DNA from: Sycobia sp. Sy_11
Taxonomy: Eukaryota; Arthropoda; Insecta; Hymenoptera; Epichrysomallidae
Assembly (NCBI GenBank): GCA_018907035.1
Contig: JACCIC010000019.1
Coordinates: 1,276,001 to 1,340,000, forward strand
DNA length: 64,000 bases
Reading direction: 5' to 3'
Part shown: piece after piece, positions 9,480-59,083 of the stretch
How positions within the stretch are numbered: the stretch's first letter is position 1
How the letters are laid out: each line of letters begins with the position of its first letter
Translations under genes and position numbers: made by a program
The notes under the pieces: generated by a model
The model's input: the letters and a program-made list of their open reading frames with translations, nothing else
Told to the model about the DNA's origin: nothing
Database searches by the model: none

Positions 9480-10593
9480 CCTGCTGACTGCATTTATTCT
9501 ACATCAAAAGCCTAATTAACATCTATTTAAATAAAATATGTTCTCTAAAAAACTGTTGTACCGAACTAAAGGAGAATTAAGCATTAAAAGTGCAATAATG
9601 GAGTGAAGAGTGCAAAAAATAGATCATGGAGTTATTGCTGAGAGAGATCTAATGTGAATAAATAAGTGTGATTCCTAAATTAAGTCTTCATTATAATCCC
9701 GAATCTGAAGTCGCTAAAATCCCAACGATTAATTTATTTTGTGATATTCAACTGGCGAACAAGCATAAAGAGCAGAAAAAAAATAATAATTAACTGCCCT
9801 AAGAAAACAGTTCTTCGTCGTTGATATAATAATTATATTTCTAAACCATATACATGTATTATTTTTATTTCATTCTTTTTTTTATTACGTGGTCCGTTTT
9901 ATTAAAATTTCAAGAAAACAATTATATTGCGATTATTCTTTTTTTTTGGTAATTCGCTAAGGATTTTCCAATCTAGTACATTTTATAAATATCTTAAACA
10001 TAAATCCCGAATTTTTCATTAAAATATCAGTTTTGTATTTCAATCGGTAGCGCCATCTCGTACACCCGCTGGACGTTTTCTTTGCCAATAGTAGAGCTTT
10101 ATTGATATCTACAGTTATATACGTATATACGCGTATCCGACTCGACCTCGGGCGATGCGCGCACGCTTATCGAGCCCTAATCCATATTTCTATGTAAGTA
10201 ATGCCCAGTCCAGCTGGTCGGCCCTGCCGGAGGGAAGACGCGCGTTCGTTCGATCGGACCGGTCCGAGGGTAAAAGCCGCCGTCGCCTCGGTTGAGGCGC
10301 GGCCGCATGATCAATTTGAGAATGAGACGCTCGACGAGAGCTCGACAGACGGAGGCAGGGACGATGAAGAAGCAACGATACGTATACAGAATTTTGATAT
10401 TGTATGTGTGCGCGCCAATAGCTGATAGTCGACATGCGCGCATACACGTACAAAGTTTGCGCGTGCGAGCGCGTTTGAAACATAAAACCCGAAGATTTTA
10501 AGTACGTGTGAAATAGGGCCGGCTAGTTGGACATGGAAGGTATTGGCAAGAATTAATATTAAAAACTGTGCTTTTGTCGAATGTTTTGAATCG
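9480..10593. other. non-coding DNA with a CpG-rich island at about 10130-10480
   Basis: Open frames exist on both strands in the island without recognisable domains. A CTCF-like AGCGCCATCT lies at about 10048. Confidence 0.45.
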
Positions 10594-10649
10594 AATTAAT
10601 AAATATTTTTATCGGTCTCACAGTCTTTATACTGTAATATATTAAACTA
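10594..10649 (+). repeat. left terminal inverted repeat of copy A
   Basis: It pairs with 10875-10929. The first 25 bases match the reverse complement of the right end exactly. The rest includes the shared ACAGTCTTTATA / TATAAAGACTGT segment. Confidence 0.85.
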
Positions 10650-10874
10650 AAATAATGACAGTTAGACTGCCCTTGTGCAAAATTAGATATCAATCCTTAT
10701 TCAAAATTATAAAGAATAAAACCAAATAATAATAAAATAAAATAAAAATACTAAAAACAATAAACTATATTCTATGTTAGAAACGGATAACCTGACTACC
10801 TCCACCACTTTATTCTCTCCTTTGGTGTCCGGAGTTTCGAACCGCTATGGTTCATCCTCAGGAACTAAACCGTT

Positions 10875-10929
10875 TAGTTAATATACTGTATTATAAAGAC
10901 TGTAAGACCGATAAAAATATTTATTAATT
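10875..10929 (-). repeat. right terminal inverted repeat of copy A
   Basis: Reverse complement partner of 10594-10649, ending ATAAAAATATTTATTAATT. A separate short palindrome, AACTAAAC-C-GTTTAGTT, lies at 10863-10879 and overlaps its inner edge. Confidence 0.85.
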
Positions 10930-12094
10930 TGGCAAAAATTGTGAATTAAGAAATATTTTGGGATTCTCTGGGAAACAGCTAAATGAAAAGGAGAATAAAA
11001 CACTATAAATTATATATGCTCAAGCAAGTGCTCTCTCCTCTTCAAGCAGGCAAGCGACTAACGTACGACAAAAATTTTATTGTACTGAGAAGGTCCTACT
11101 CTCTGAAGCCCTCATCTATGTTTATGCTTCAAATAGCAGTTCCGAGTAACAGACCGTGAATAATAAAAGATTATTTGATATTAATTTTTGTATATATCAA
11201 TAAGAAAGAGAAATATTCTTTTGAAGGATTTACGTCAAGCTGAAATGTGCAAATGTGAAAGAGTAATTGGTAAGCGCTTGGAAAATTCAATCCAAAGCAC
11301 ATGAAAATTATTGAAAATTAAGCCCAGAATGAATCTGAAGAAAAGCAAAACTGACTATCGAAATCTATTATTTTGCGTGCCTAAGAACGTGAGCAGATTG
11401 TTGTTTTACCAAAATCAATGAAATCTGTGAAATGATCAAATCTTACAGACAGATATAAAATCAGTGTCTTAGTTTTTACAATATTTTACTATAATGCATT
11501 TGTCTTATTTAATCATTCTCATACATTTGCTTCTTTGTTTTTCTTTGATGATTATTAGTTACATAATTTTTTTTGAACACAAGCGAATGGAGGCGGTTCG
11601 AAAATTATCCGTCTGAGTAAGAAGCTCACCCGCCAATTCTGCGTGTATTAATCATTCCCCATTTTTGGACTAGGATTGCGCGCTGGTATAAATCACGCGC
11701 ACAAGTATACCGATTCATACGCAGTGTCAGTGACCAAACCGCTGAAGCTTTGAGAGTTGGAATCGTCAAAAAAAAAAAAAACAAAAAAAAAAACAAAAAA
11801 AAAACATAAAATTCTCTATTACCGAGGTAGAATATTTTATCAATTTCTCTATTTGCTTTTTTTCCGCCTTCGCGGATCATTGATGAAAGTTCGCGAGCGC
11901 TTGGCCTCGTGAGAGAGAAAAGTAAAGCGGCAAACGGGGAAAAAAAAAGCTTCGTCTCCGATATAATTATTATGCTTTATAGGTCGCGCGGAGATAGCCG
12001 CGTCTATTGGGAAACGTCCCGAGAGCGGCGTGGATCGTGCGCGCCTCCATACAATCTAACATACCTGTGTTATATATAGACGCGCGATTTCAGG

Positions 12095-37694: not shown

Positions 37695-38866
37695 TACTAC
37701 TCTGTACAAATCTGATTAAGACTTTATTTATAACTTTTGAAATCTTTTTTTGTTTTTCTAAATCAAATCACCCCCCCTCAAAAGAATCCCCCCCCCCGAT
37801 GCAATGCAACGATGCCAATGCTTTTTCCAATTTGCAAAACATTTTTTATACTCGTATTCCAGAATGGCCATTAGTTCCTTCTTCGATTGGTCTTTTATTT
37901 CTTCAATCGAATCAAATCCGTGTCTCCGAAGTGGTCTTTTGAGTTTAGCTGAACAGCCAGAAGTTACACGGTGCTAAATCAGGCGAGTACGGTGGTTGCG
38001 GAACGATATTGGTTGAATTTTTGGGGAAATGTTTAAGTAAAATCAATACAGTGTGAGCTGGTGCATTATCGCGATGAAAAAACCAAGAATTAACTTTCCA
38101 TAAATCTGTCCTTTCCAGACAAATAGTTTCGATTAGCAACGATAATCGAAGAAAACAGTGAACAAAACCTTGATTTTTGAGCGACACTGCCGTGATTTTT
38201 TCGGTCTCCGTTCTCCTTCAGTCTCATCTCCAGTTATTATAATTTCTATCTTGTCCTGATAGTCCGAAAGCATTGTTTCACAGACCTCCATCCCATACCG
38301 TTTTTCCAAAAAATTCAGTGTTTTTGGCACCAATCGAGATTTCACCCTTTTTAGGCACAAAACGTCTTTGAAAATGGCGTTGACTGACCCATTTGAAATT
38401 CTAACAATATTAGCAAGAGTTTTAGTAGTGAATATATGATTTTGCAGAATCAATTCTTTGATTTTGTCGACGTGTAGCACGTCAGTGGATGTTCTTGGTC
38501 GTCTTTGATGTGGTTTGTCTTTAACGCGCTCTCGACTTTCTTTGAACAATTTTGTGCCAATCAAAAGCTCTTGACATTGATTTCTCAGCAAAGGCCTTCT
38601 GTAATATTCTGATATTTCATTTCGCGCACAAAATTTAATGCTATTTCTTTGTTGAACAATTTCAGGCATTATAAAAACCGAAGAGACAACTTTTCTTTGT
38701 TCACAAAACACAAGCGAAAGTATATGACGAATAAAGATAATTACGTGAAATTTGGTACAGATAACTCTTACAGTACTACAAACTTAAAAATAAAAACATT
38801 TGTCCGAATCGATAAACCTGGGAAATTTGAATTGAAAAGCCTTTCTCATATTTGTACAGAGTAGTA
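37695..38866 (-). mobile_element. mariner transposon, decayed, with both ends and flanking TA
   Basis: A 17-bp perfect inverted repeat marks the ends: TACTACTCTGTACAAAT at 37695-37711 and its complement at 38850-38866. Similarity between the ends continues weakly further in. The outermost TA on each side fits the TA target duplication of Tc1/mariner elements, leaving an element of about 1168 bp (37697-38864), within the usual mariner size. The interior encodes a broken mariner transposase on the minus strand. A partial echo of the right end, TTTGTACACAGTAGTA, lies just outside at about 38871. Confidence 0.9.
37770..38669 (-). pseudogene. mariner transposase pseudogene (D,D34D type)
   Basis: The transposase family cuts and pastes its own element at TA sites. 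The N-terminal part, from a Met at 38669, has the mariner 'QQRNSIKFC' opening, the helix-turn-helix segment 'NGSVNAIF' and 'RLVPKTLNFLEKR'. It runs to the first catalytic Asp in 'ITGDET' (about 38220-38231). Next comes a deletion of the usual segment after GDET, then 'RPKKSRQCRSKIKVL'. A frameshift near 38133-38187 moves the rest to another frame: 'WFFHRDNAPAHT' holds the second Asp, and 34 residues later 'YSPDLAPCNFWLF' has Asn where the third catalytic Asp should be. A stop follows, and the C-terminal tail is recognisable to about 37775 in further frames. C-runs at 37774-37797 interrupt the tail. It cannot be functional. Confidence 0.92.
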
Positions 38867-44796: not shown

Positions 44797-45221
44797 GATT
44801 AATTATATTTTTGTGGAGCACATAGTATGAACGGAAAATAAAAAAGCCAGGACGAATTTCTCGACAGTCGAGTCTCTCAAAGTATAATCTGAATGTCCCC
44901 ATCATTTGATCGGGTCCATAGTATAAAGGAAAAGTGTGGGGATGGAGTATATATAATTTTGTTTCAGAAGTCTTTGAAGAAGAATCGAAGGCGTTCGAAA
45001 CGTTGGACGACGTCCACTGATAATGAAGGTGGTGATAGTCAGAGTATCCTTTACTAACGGTAGTATTTGGATTAATTTTTATTCATATGTAATAATGATT
45101 TTACGGAGGTGACTATCAACAAGGACTGTCTTGATGATCATTTGACTGTCATTATTTAATTATTTAATTATAAATATATTATTTTCTGCGACTGCATGGC
45201 CGATCAAAATATTTGTTAATT
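44797..45221 (+). mobile_element. TIR/fold-back element, copy C (about 425 bp, diverged)
   Basis: This is the most diverged of the three related elements and lies in the opposite orientation to copies A and B. Its right end (45190-45221) reads GACTGCATGGCCGATCAAAA then ATATTTGTTAATT, matching the GACTGTgAGACCGATAAAAA then TATTTATTAATT end of copy A. The left end GATTAATTATATTTTTGTGG is a weaker match. Internally, TCGAAACGTTGGAC (44994-45008) is shared with copy B, TCCTTTACTAAC (45047-45058) with copy B, and GGTGGTGATAGTCAG (45029-45043) corresponds to GTGGTGGAGGTAGTCAG on the minus strand of copy A. CAAGGACTGTC and GACTGTCATTATTT follow at 45119-45157. There is no coding capacity. Confidence 0.65.
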
Positions 45222-46536
45222 CAGCTTACGACCGTCGACGTTACGTACAGTCTTACAGTAATCGTACTATTTGCAATTCTTTTATTTCGTTGAAATATTT
45301 CACTTGAAAAATTACTTGATCAGCTTCAACGTTAATTCCTTACTATACGTAATTCTATATACGCCAATTTTGTATGATTCATTTGGATTGTGTATACACA
45401 TATACAATACAATATAAGCATATAATAGTATAGTATCTTAAACATATAATTACACTGAAATAAAAGACTTTAACAAAATTTATTGTTGCACTGTTGTCTC
45501 GCTGAATTATTTTCCTATTATGCTAAAAAGGCACAAAACAATAGATATAAGCATTATCGTTGCATTAATTTAATTAGTGTTCAATTCATTACTTTGCAGT
45601 ATATATGACTCATTTACGAATAATTTTTTTACGCATTCAGCTTCCGTATTTATGACTCCGAAGCGGAATGAATCTTTAAAGATACGTAAAAATGACATAG
45701 AATAATTTATAATAATAAATTGTTATTCCAGGTTATTTTATATACATATATACGATCCCGCTTTGCTCGAAATGTTAAAAAATTACGTTAAATTTAAAAA
45801 TATGACATGCATTGCGCAATTGGCAATAATATGTAACGTAGAGAATCGTCTATAAATATTTTCATGTTCTTGAAAAACAATTTTCTACAAAAAAAAAGAA
45901 GAAGAAGAGAATGGAAAAATTTATAATCCACGCGACGAATGTTTGTAAAATATATTTCAAACTCGTGTACTTCGCAAAAATATTTTTGTGAAGTTATTGC
46001 AAAAAATTTACGAATATTTCGAGTTGGGCTTGAAATTCAATAACATGCTTCCATAAACTGACATAAATCACCAAAGACTTTCAGTCCAACTCTAATCAAT
46101 TATTTTATCCACTCGTAATAAATAAGTGTAACAGTTGTCATCGCCAGATGGATTCCTCCGCACCGTTCTCCAATTCGATCGCGTTCATCTATATATGCAC
46201 ACCCACGAGCATATAAACACACACAAACATGCACACACCCAGATATTATATATATATGTATATCATACATCCGGAAATTCTTCTAAAACGACGACCGCAT
46301 CAGTCCCCTCCCCCTCGCGCCGAGCGCGAATATTTAACAGACGACTCGTTGGCAGCCGCTCTCCTCTCCCCGCGTACATAAATGCGCGCATGACTTTCAC
46401 CTTTCACATAAATAATCCAATATAATATACGAACGCGCGTTAACCTCCAATCGCGAGACAAAGGGCAGGAAGTGGAAATTTAACGCAGCGAAGGAGAGAT
46501 GAAAGAGAGAAAGAGACCGAGTGCTCTCATTGCTTG

Positions 46537-47382: not shown

Positions 47383-47435
<53 letters not shown>
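47383..47435. repeat. (AT)n microsatellite
   Basis: About 26 units, 170 bp from the hammerhead motif. Confidence 0.95.
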
Positions 47436-47441
<6 letters not shown>

Positions 47442-47601
47442 GTACTTGAATAATTCCACAAGTTTTGCGATGTAAGACATCGACAATATTTATCTCAACC
47501 ACGATTAAGTCAAATGTGAGATTTTCTTTCCAAGGCATGTGCAAGAAATAATTTTTATTTTTGAAGAATAAGTTAAAATTATTAGCTGAAGTACATACTA
47601 T

Positions 47602-47674
47602 TTGTACGTTTCGCCCTCAGTTATCTGCTGGGCTCGTCAGTAGGACGGCAGGTAACCAATTCCTAAACGTACAA
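47602..47674 (-). ncRNA. hammerhead self-cleaving ribozyme motif, stem III open (type III topology)
   Basis: Read on the minus strand, every element of the hammerhead consensus is present in order. Stem III 5' strand TTGTACGT (47667-47674) is followed by the cleavage-site nucleotide U (47666). Stem I is TAGGA/TCCTA (47661-47665 with 47641-47645) with a 15-nt loop. Then come the core CTGACGA (47634-47640), stem II GCCC/GGGC (47630-47633 with 47613-47616) with a 13-nt loop, GAA (47610-47612), and stem III 3' strand ACGTACAA (47602-47609). All stems are perfectly paired, including the A15.1-U16.1 and G10.1-C11.1 pairs. Cleavage is predicted after 47666, at a GUU triplet, which the NUH rule allows but which is less common than GUC. 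Loops I and II are complementary at 8 of 9 positions, consistent with the tertiary contact of fast natural hammerheads. The ends lie in stem III; many animal examples are open at stem I instead. No coding sequence or second copy is adjacent, so the host transcript is unknown. The structure is seen directly; activity is inferred. Confidence 0.88.
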
Positions 47675-48479
47675 TGCTTACTAAAATCAATGAGAAGTCA
47701 GAATATAAAGACGATAAAATTATCTGTGGGAGAAGCATATTATGTTAAACTGCTGGATTTCAAATAATGAATTGTACATATCTTAGAAACTTATATAGCG
47801 ACTTTTTGTTCATTCAGCTATTAACAAAAGGATAATTTTAATTAAGTTCCACTAAGCGATATAGCGCATCTAAAAGTATCCTGATATATATTGATAAATT
47901 AACTGCATTTGGTTTGATTATTAACTGAACAACCGATTATTCTTGACTTGCTGATTTATGATCATTAAATAAAACGTAGTAAGCAAAATATGAAACTGTG
48001 TGGAGCACTTAAAGAGACAAAATTAATTAAAGAAGTTTAGAAAAATCACCGAAAAGTTGAAGTTGCGATATAAATTTGCATAACCATGCAGAAAGTTCTA
48101 TTCACAATTTGTTCCAAATAATTTCCAACGCCCATAAAGTCTTGACCTCCGCAAAAATTTACAGTAACGTGTAAAATTATCTGGACTCCTCATCTCATGA
48201 ATATTATAATAAAATAATAAATGCTGTACGTATTTATAGTTCAACCAAAAGCTTTGGCTAATTTCATAAATCTCGAAAATATGCCTTTATCTTGAATGAT
48301 AACCGGAATCGTTGTAGCCGCAGCACCGAATGGAAACTCATCATTACAGCATTACTTATTCAGAAGAAAACGATTATTTAAAGAAAATCTATGGCTTTAA
48401 AGGTGAATAGCCTGTCATACGATAAATTTCAGTTAAGATATAGCACAAAGATTAATATAATCCTTTATAGGTAAAAGCA

Positions 48480-57939: not shown

Positions 57940-58618
57940 ATACGGGAAAAAACGGCGCGTCGCGCCGTTGAACGCTCGCTATAGCCCGCCATGTATACGC
58001 GGGAGGGCCTTGAACGACGCGCGGGCCGCGGGCGACGGCCTTGACTCGGCCCGGCGCCGCGACATCGTCGCCCAGTGCGAAGCCTAATGGCCATATGCGC
58101 GCATATACATTACTGTACGGCGGCTCTAGACAGTCGCGAGTCGCATCTATATTATAAATTATATCCTGAGGTTTTGTCGTTTATTTTTTTTTTTTTTGGA
58201 AGCGCATGCAGAATAACTGCAGAATTATTTATAACGTATATTTGTACCGTTTCAGTTTGTACAGAGTATGAGCAAGAAAGATAAATTGAAAATTGAATTT
58301 TGATTATACAGGCCAAGAACTGGATGATCCTAGCATACTACAGTAAGAAATAAGCATAAAGTCCTAATAATCATGAGATGAGATCTACATGTAATAAAAA
58401 TACAATAAATTAATAAATATTTTTTTATTGGTCTTACAGTCCAATCAATTCCATCCAAAAATAAAATAAAATAAAAATAAAAATAAAATAAAAATAAAAA
58501 ATAAAAATAATAATAAAAAATAAAAAATAAGAAATAAAAAATAAAAAATAATAAAAATAAAATAAAAAAAAATAAAAATTAAAAATAAAAATTAATTAAA
58601 AATTAAATTAAAATTATA

Positions 58619-58721
58619 ATGACAGTCAGACTGTCCTTGTTTACATTCACCCCCGTAGCCTAATCTGAAAATAAAATATTAGCTGAAAAAATTCTTTGTT
58701 AGTAAAGGGCAGTCTGACTGT
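58619..58721 (+). repeat. left arm of long inverted repeat in copy B
   Basis: It matches the reverse complement of 58798-58900 at 100 of 103 positions. It begins ATGACAGTCAGACTGTCC and ends AGTCTGACTGT. The near-identity suggests a recent origin of the duplication or recent gene conversion. Confidence 0.9.
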
Positions 58722-58759
58722 CCCCAACACCCTTACCTAATTGAAGACTTGTCCAACGT

Positions 58760-58788
58760 TTCGAGCTCGCTACGGCTCCTCATCAGGG
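58760..58788 (-). ncRNA. hammerhead-like core stem-loop in copy B (incomplete)
   Basis: On the minus strand the order is CTGATGA (58782-58788), a short hairpin with GAGC/GCTC pairing, then GAAAC. A GTCC/GGAC pair can close the outside. Stems I and III of a true hammerhead cannot both be formed here, so it is called hammerhead-like only. The equivalent positions in copies A and C keep the TCGAAAC part and the hairpin. Confidence 0.4.
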
Positions 58789-58797
58789 ACTGGAGTC

Positions 58798-58900
58798 ACA
58801 GTCAGACTGCACTTTACTAACAAAGAATTTTTTCAGCTAATATTTTATTTTCAGATTAGTCTACGGGGGCGAATGTAAACAAGGACAGTCTGACTGTCAT
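58798..58900 (-). repeat. right arm of long inverted repeat in copy B
   Basis: Partner of 58619-58721, separated by a 76-nt loop. If transcribed from either strand, the arms plus the flanking AT-rich complement would form a hairpin of roughly 240 bp. Confidence 0.9.
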
Positions 58901-59083
58901 TCTAATTTTAATTTAATTTTTAATTTAATTTTTATTTTTAATTTTTATTTTTTTATTTTATTTTTATTATTTTTTATTTTTTATTTCTTATTTTTTATTT
59001 TTTATTATTATTTTTATTTTTTATTTTTATTTAAATTTTATTTTTTATAATGAGGACTGAAGATAAAAAAATATTTATAATTT

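Follow-up and report, generated by a model that had tools for sequence, protein, structure and literature searches.

A stretch of 64,000 nucleotides from Sycobia sp. Sy_11 (the window) contains, on its minus strand, a 73-nt motif with the appearance of a complete hammerhead ribozyme (HHR), and this raises the question of whether the ribozyme is genuine and what kind of element carries it. The sequence-only reading had described a hammerhead with all core positions and stems of 8, 5, and 4 bp, situated near no recognized retroelement, and had listed an orphan ribozyme and a remnant of a retrozyme-like element among its possible origins.

The hammerhead motif in the window

The motif and its parts were located as follows.

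47602–47674 (−): type III hammerhead ribozyme motif, from sequence reading, RF00008, and a script, with 89 motifs compared
47667–47674 (−): 5′ strand of stem III, pairing with 47602–47609; six of the eight pairs are present in the family consensus
47665–47666 (−): predicted cleavage site, between 47666 (U17) and 47665, placed by analogy with other hammerheads
47661–47665 (−): 5′ strand of stem I, pairing with 47641–47645, from the sequence and the family alignment
47648–47659 (−): loop 1 segment complementary to the loop 2 segment 47617–47628, with 11 of 12 pairs in the window copy
47634–47640 (−): core CUGACGA, from sequence reading
47630–47633 (−): 5′ strand of stem II, pairing with 47613–47616, from the sequence and the family alignment
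47609–47612 (−): core GAAA, the last A of which opens stem III, from sequence reading

Every part of the proposed hammerhead was confirmed when the minus strand was read. Stem III is formed by UUGUACGU/ACGUACAA (8 bp), stem I by UAGGA/UCCUA (5 bp), and stem II by GCCC/GGGC (4 bp), and a U at the cleavage position gives the site GUU. The window copy has CUGANGA, GAA, the U16.1–A15.1 pair, H at position 17, and three stems with stem III open, and the type III topology assigned earlier was upheld by this copy and by the family described below. A motif script identified the complete type III motif at one site in the window and in none of 300 dinucleotide-shuffled windows. The loops of 15 and 13 nt did not match the canonical sizes of plant and viroid type III hammerheads (loop 1 of 6–8 nt and loop 2 of 4 nt).

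The covariance model RF00008 (Hammerhead_3) was aligned end to end at 47603–47673 (−) with 35.2 bits and an E-value of 4.2e-5 (3.5 kb, 4227 families). This is below the curated gathering score of 48.5 bits, and a scan of the whole window at the gathering scores returned no matches. The absence of a match above threshold had been named beforehand as a result that would refute the motif, and in this formal sense the check went against it; we judged the shortfall to be outweighed by the family evidence. Going by its sequence, the window motif looks like a genuine hammerhead with a complete type III motif.

The dispersed element and its ribozyme

The genome (621 Mb, 472 contigs) was searched with a 33-nt stretch of the motif, extending from the core over stem II as far as GAAAC, with up to three mismatches. 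The search returned 236 matches (119 + 117), of which 41 were exact and one lay in the window, while the reversed control returned 0 + 0. The 473 bp around the motif proved to be a dispersed repeat with at least 65 BLAST matches (40 of 441 candidates scored); at least 41 matches, including the window's own, covered approximately 340 or more of the 473 bases, and the other 40 had 81–90% identity. The genome-wide check for further copies was thus positive, which contradicts an orphan ribozyme, and a remnant of a retrozyme-like element was the correct one among the earlier suggestions. The statement that no retroelement was recognized did not hold either, since the motif sits inside one (47433–47875) and three Penelope-like 3′ ends occur in the same window. 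No match to RF00008 was found among the 68 of 83,076 whole-genome candidates scored, a search that missed even the known window copy and therefore carries no weight, and the exact 33-mer had no match in the IMG/VR viral contigs.

The copy in the window and its immediate surroundings comprised the following features.

47433–47875 (−): window copy of the HHR-bearing element, consisting of an inverted 5′ piece (47838–47875) and a direct unit (47839–47433) up to 3′ end A, from blastn against the other 39 loci of L001–L040 and unit mapping
47838–47875 (+): short inverted 5′ fragment, unit positions 431–469, with its outer end near 3′ end B, from unit mapping
47383–47435 (no strand): (AT)n microsatellite at the element's 3′ end A

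The family profile matched the window once, at 47872–47417 (−), with an E-value of 2.6e-142. The inverted piece ends near B, and end A lies beside the (AT)n run, apparently after a local deletion; the window copy is a diverged insertion. Microsatellites of the types (TA)n, (GA)n, and (CA)n are numerous in the window and gave matches to microRNA families below their cut-offs. An open frame at 38133–38783 (−) had no Pfam or PDB match. We take this frame to resemble the N-terminal half of a mariner transposase. A separate frame at L045:2154–3206 had Mos1-type Pfam domains.

Copies were compared at 82 loci, namely L001–L040 without L034 (a duplicate of L033 on another contig), L071, L072, L074, and L075–L114. 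The loci L001–L040 were found by likeness to the window copy, and the other 43 by the 33-mer with zero or one mismatch. The unit, defined from L033, is approximately 463 bp long with 31% GC. The L033 copy had no sizeable reading frame, its longest stop-to-stop frame being 73 codons, and no RT or GIY-YIG frame. Copies begin at variable positions and often cross the unit junction; the direct run exceeded one unit in 39 of the 82 loci, most copies had 1–1.5 units, and L071 had 2.25 units with two HHRs. No large tandem arrays were seen among the 82 loci. As the runs pass the unit junction, the template must have been longer than the unit, either a multimer or a circle that was traversed more than once. 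The element is thus a small multi-copy repeat with one HHR per unit that also occurs in tandem, as is expected of a metazoan retrozyme. An open frame approximately 620 bp away from the copy at L007 encodes a Dumpy DPY module (PF21164, E-value of 2.9e-9). Among 120 listed relatives, a single one bears a species name, that of the hemipteran insect Cyamophila willieti, and dumpy is an insect gene; taken together, these observations suggest an insect or a close relative as the host.

The ribozyme of the family was derived from an alignment over the motif (A1, 39 rows; 40 were aligned and the duplicate L034 was dropped). The consensus has a complete core, the cleavage site GUC, stems of 6, 5, and 4 bp, and all stem pairs. 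Position 17 was C in 79, U in six, G in three, and A in one of 89 motifs, so that the consensus site is GUC and not the GUU of the window. These 89 full motifs occurred in 79 of the 82 loci, 65 with an intact core and 24 with a broken core; 35 combined an intact core with all 15 family stem pairs, and 33 of these had at least 10 of 12 loop pairs. Shares of intact cores are biased upwards, because a pattern spanning the core served to select 43 of the 82 loci. Within A1, 93.4% of the cells were paired, and pairs with a double change (3 versus 2.1 in shuffles) showed no excess, which is expected for copies decaying from one source and neither supports nor refutes the structure.

The consensus loops of 15 and 13 nt contain the segments UUGGUUACCUGC and GCAGGUAACUGA, which can pair with each other at every position (12/12), with two G–U pairs. 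A run of 12 or more complementary positions was obtained in 10 of 200,000 shuffled loop pairs. The window copy has one mismatch (11/12), and its longest unbroken run is seven. Read from the sequence, this complementarity could let loops 1 and 2 form a kissing contact when the ribozyme is in its active fold; fully paired, it could instead give an inactive, rod-like fold. The rod fold uses the same 12 pairs and is the energy minimum of the consensus (−27.7 versus −14.2 kcal/mol for the HHR fold without loop contact), and the complementarity alone therefore cannot separate a kissing contact from the rival fold. L071 and matches with CTAAGG (e.g., C201, C199, and C187) form a subfamily with a changed loop 2 base, which turns a loop–loop U–G pair into U–A.

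The low energy of the rod is also what speaks for a hammerhead look-alike, in which stem III and the 12-bp loop–loop complement would make up a conserved hairpin and the HHR core would be incidental or long dead. The broken core in 24 of 89 motifs agrees with this, as does the conservation of the HHR columns (0.946; rest of the unit, 0.883), which barely exceeds that of the 125 columns just upstream (0.92–0.96). Since the upstream columns are equally conserved, no special constraint is claimed for the HHR. A look-alike is nevertheless very unlikely: the complete motif appeared in none of the 300 shuffled windows, no core base or stem pair is missing from the consensus, which also has the canonical GUC site, and a rod has no need of CUGANGA, GAAA, or GUC.

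Insertion ends and resident Penelope-like elements

The HHR lies on the strand whose 3′ ends are fixed. The right ends of the 82 copies were at A (...CTTAATTATT) in 37, at B (...AAAATTATCTATTATT) in 28, and elsewhere in 17, with A and B approximately 45 nt apart. An inverted fragment preceded the direct run in 48 of the 82 loci, and its outer end was A or B in 40 of these 48. Both ends could be classed in 34 loci, the other 48 having no inverted part or an end outside A/B, and the two ends were discordant in 30 of the 34 (16 BA, 14 AB, 3 AA, and 1 BB; Fisher p = 1.3e-5). The right end of the window copy was classed as "other" by the script, which places this copy outside the 34.

A shared flanking word of at least 9 bp was found in 18 of the 34 loci, compared with 2.4% of mismatched pairs. 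All 18 were A/B discordant, and two of the words were TA repeats; the four concordant loci had flanking words of 4–7 bp. An earlier test on 39 copies (mean shared word of 7.8 versus 6.05) was superseded by this 34-locus test. Insertions often carry target duplications of 9–13 bp, and the shared words indicate that the direct run and the inverted part belong to one insertion. The copies at L033 and L075 interrupt a Penelope-like 3′ end that continues on both sides, and the L075 insertion is flanked by an 11-bp duplication, AGGATATCCTT. The copy at L085 splits the RT frame of a Penelope-like element (PLE), of which residues 165–168 are present on both sides, matching its 12-bp duplication. For L033 and L075, a template-switch chimera was considered and set aside, given that PLE sequence flanks the element at either end. 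The inverted ends were not attributed to a DNA transposon (MITE) either, because the length of the inverted part varies between copies and one end is unlike the other.

The grouping of the 3′ ends, the variable truncation on the 5′ side, the inversions, and the target duplications would also suit a SINE-like element moved by a LINE, with inverted 5′ parts arising from ordinary twin priming. Twin priming by a LINE, however, leaves an inverted part without the 3′ end. The inverted parts observed here start at A or B (40/48) and the ends differ (30/34), both of which argue against such an origin, and PMC11167929 describes a pair of neighboring start sites as a feature found only in PLEs. We consider the SINE-like origin highly improbable.

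PLEs are resident in the window itself, where three 3′ ends were located.

10549–10951 (−): Penelope-like 3′ end, head-to-head, with a minimal type I HHR-like motif at 10834–10861 (−)
44930–45258 (+): Penelope-like 3′ end, approximately 2.2 kb from the HHR element
58387–58994 (−): Penelope-like 3′ end, head-to-head, with a minimal type I HHR-like motif at 58758–58786 (−)

In the genome, GIY-YIG scored over the cut-off at no fewer than 56 places (150 of 2033 candidates scored). RVT_1 lies upstream of the GIY-YIG match in L067, and L063 and L048 encode GIY-YIG. PLE copies end at ...AAATATTTATTAATTT or run on into a tail of approximately 40 nt, and many have inverted fragments. Both PLE ends were found by script in seven of 29 loci, and six of these were discordant (L048, L054, L057, L059, L064, and L069); PLE locus L046 was A/A and lies next to a TA repeat. 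A stricter PLE-end script paired only three loci (one B/A, one A/A, and one unclassed), and inspection found discordance in PLE locus L065 and in the window PLE at 10.5 kb. That the outer ends mostly differ (6/7) suggests that each target strand primes the one template at a site of its own. The PLE copy at L069 has inverted 3′ ends at more than one place (near 996 and 240). The minimal type I HHR-like motif, named by its core and the flanking GUCC/GGAC, was observed 292–333 nt before PLE end A in 15 instances at 13 loci, and Rfam scans of 20 of the 30 PLE loci listed no hammerhead.

According to PMC11167929, reverse transcription of a PLE starts at two adjacent internal sites, which gives rise to an optional tail of 30–40 bp, and the PLE protein cuts and extends both target strands. 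In the account of PMC3846280, the tail is optional at one of the inverted pLTRs and PLE target duplications measure 8–10 bp. The element here has these hallmarks of PLE-type integration, namely two 3′ ends, head-to-head inverted partial copies, and short target duplications. The matching end pattern, inverted parts, and target duplications in the element and in the PLEs indicate that the HHR element integrates like a PLE.

The likeness lies in the ends and not in the sequence. At the nucleotide level, the best match of the element in the sampled PLEs was 39 bp at 79%, the family profile gave one match in the 30 PLE loci (E-value of 4.8), and a junction alignment was no better than shuffles, 26 of 300 of which reached it. 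Two loci bring the unit and a PLE frame together. In L113, the GIY-YIG frame of a PLE runs straight into the unit at unit position 111 (approximately 666 in L113) in the same orientation; the junction lies approximately 13 codons before the end of the PLE frame, the protein alignment extending to residue 215 of 228. In L025, the RT-EN frame of a PLE ends with a stop a few bases before a unit in the opposite orientation (approximately 1488 in L025). As far as sequence can tell, these junctions may be insertions, template jumps, or traces of a PLE owning the unit.

Ownership of the unit by a PLE is the basis of another explanation, in which the copies would be solo or tandem pLTRs derived from an autonomous PLE lineage outside the sample, one whose own HHR is of type III, and the 463-bp unit would be a deletion derivative and not an independent retrozyme. 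It draws on the order of HHR, a few hundred nucleotides, end A, tail, and end B, which is that of the resident PLEs, on the tandem and inverted pLTRs given as typical of PLEs in passages of PMC3846280 and PMC8969392, and on the abutting frames of L113 and L025. The L113 junction, however, precedes the frame end, which means that the unit is no natural 3′ end there, and an insertion or a template jump fits it equally. Multi-unit runs also pass directly from unit to unit, and model R1 found no HHR in the 30 sampled PLE loci. We regard the pLTR origin as unlikely.

Proposed mechanism and comparison with known systems

We consider it probable that this is a non-autonomous, retrozyme-like element with a type III hammerhead, mobilized by the RT and endonuclease of the resident PLEs. 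A multimeric or read-through transcript would self-cleave at GUC (GUU in the window copy) into monomers of approximately 463 nt carrying 5′-OH and 2′,3′-cyclic phosphate ends, and a host ligase would close the monomers into a circle. The PLE protein would cut both target strands and start copying at A on one and at B on the other. Copying would run round the unit more than once, and the two cDNAs would join head to head. The tandem runs could equally stem from linear multimers, and the unit folded as a circle was not unusually structured (z of −1.0, 52% paired).

Several observations speak against mobilization by PLEs. One is the lack of nucleotide homology to the sampled PLEs. PLE locus L046 is A/A, and of the 34 element copies four are concordant, with TSD-like words that do not exceed 7 bp. 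The authors of PMC3846280 saw no cross-mobilization between PLE types and infer co-adapted cis signals, which argues against a PLE helper. The HHR may also be dispensable for insertion, since HHR mutations are described in PMC11167929 as having no effect on PLE insertion in vitro.

A more specific version of the mobilization by PLEs can be put forward only tentatively, and we hold it to be doubtful. The type III HHR of an animal retrozyme would be switchable, loops 1 and 2 zipping into a continuous 12-bp helix that switches cleavage off once the monomer is circular, while the PLE protein copies the circle from two starts, one per target strand. If this were true, type III hammerheads like those in animal HDV-like agents would have a genomic source in families of this kind.

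As to which enzyme moves animal retrozymes, the insertion scars described here point to the machinery of PLEs in the same genome, and even in the same window. Mobilization by a PLE helper predicts that copying starts at A and B, which is testable with purified PLE protein in the manner outlined in PMC11167929. Searches of the open-licence literature yielded no described animal type III retrozyme family and no use of PLE end signatures to identify the helper of a retrozyme.

In the descriptions given by PMC7229834, PMC7761336, and PMC11722881, animal retrozymes have type I HHRs and type III HHRs are found in plants. PMC7761336 mentions in passing insect elements with type III HHRs (in preparation), and PMC3088659 refers to HHRs in interspersed repeats of the mosquito Aedes aegypti. 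The element resembles the metazoan non-LTR retrozymes of the first three papers, as they portray them, in being a small, non-coding, GC-poor repeat with one HHR per unit, dispersed and partly in tandem. The same papers propose that copying proceeds via circular RNA and name PLEs as candidate helpers on account of their co-occurrence with retrozymes. The metazoan retrozymes they depict have a type I HHR, units of approximately 170–400 nt, and often multimeric arrays, whereas the present element has a type III HHR, a unit of 463 nt, and mostly 1–1.5 units. Because its HHR is not of type I, the element can be said to work like a metazoan retrozyme as a variant. PMC7761336, where it discusses helpers, sees no conserved motif in the retrozyme repeats that reveals one and names PLEs as likely by co-occurrence; the insertion ends of the element offer such a clue, in contrast to the described animal retrozymes.

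Type III HHRs with loop pseudoknots are documented by PMC7936874 in termite and toad HDV-like agents, in termite genomes, and in Diptera. Their type III topology, 5-bp stem I, pairing between the loops of stems I and II, and occurrence in animals are shared with the element, judging from the motifs presented there. In the PMC7936874 motifs, as drawn, helix I is longer and bears an additional hairpin, stem II has 6 bp, and the contact is GCCR/YGGC; in termite genomes these motifs are isolated. The element, by contrast, forms a mobile family of many copies in which loop 1 is a simple loop of 15 nt and stem II has 4 bp, with the 12-nt complementarity. It does not match the termite/toad HDV-like class, for which its stem I of 5 bp fits and its loop 1 and stem II do not. 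The structure searches summarized in PMC7936874 are given as finding no such HHRs in hymenopterans, hemipterans, and a cockroach.

The plant LTR retrozymes outlined in PMC7761336 share with the element a type III HHR in a non-autonomous retroelement. They are characterized there by LTRs, a primer-binding site, and a polypurine tract, and in the relevant part of PMC7936874 by a loop 1 of 6–8 nt and a loop 2 of 4 nt. The 5′ ends of the element vary as in target-primed copying, unlike those of plant LTR retrozymes. With the PLEs bearing minimal type I HHRs, as far as these are covered by PMC11167929 and PMC3846280, the element has in common two 3′ ends, an optional tail, inverted partial copies, short target duplications, and an HHR a few hundred nucleotides before the end. 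It differs from PLEs in that neither an RT/EN frame nor nucleotide homology to them was found, and in its full type III HHR in place of a minimal type I one. The element places a type III hammerhead in a mobile, multi-copy insect family, beside PLEs with minimal type I-like ones.
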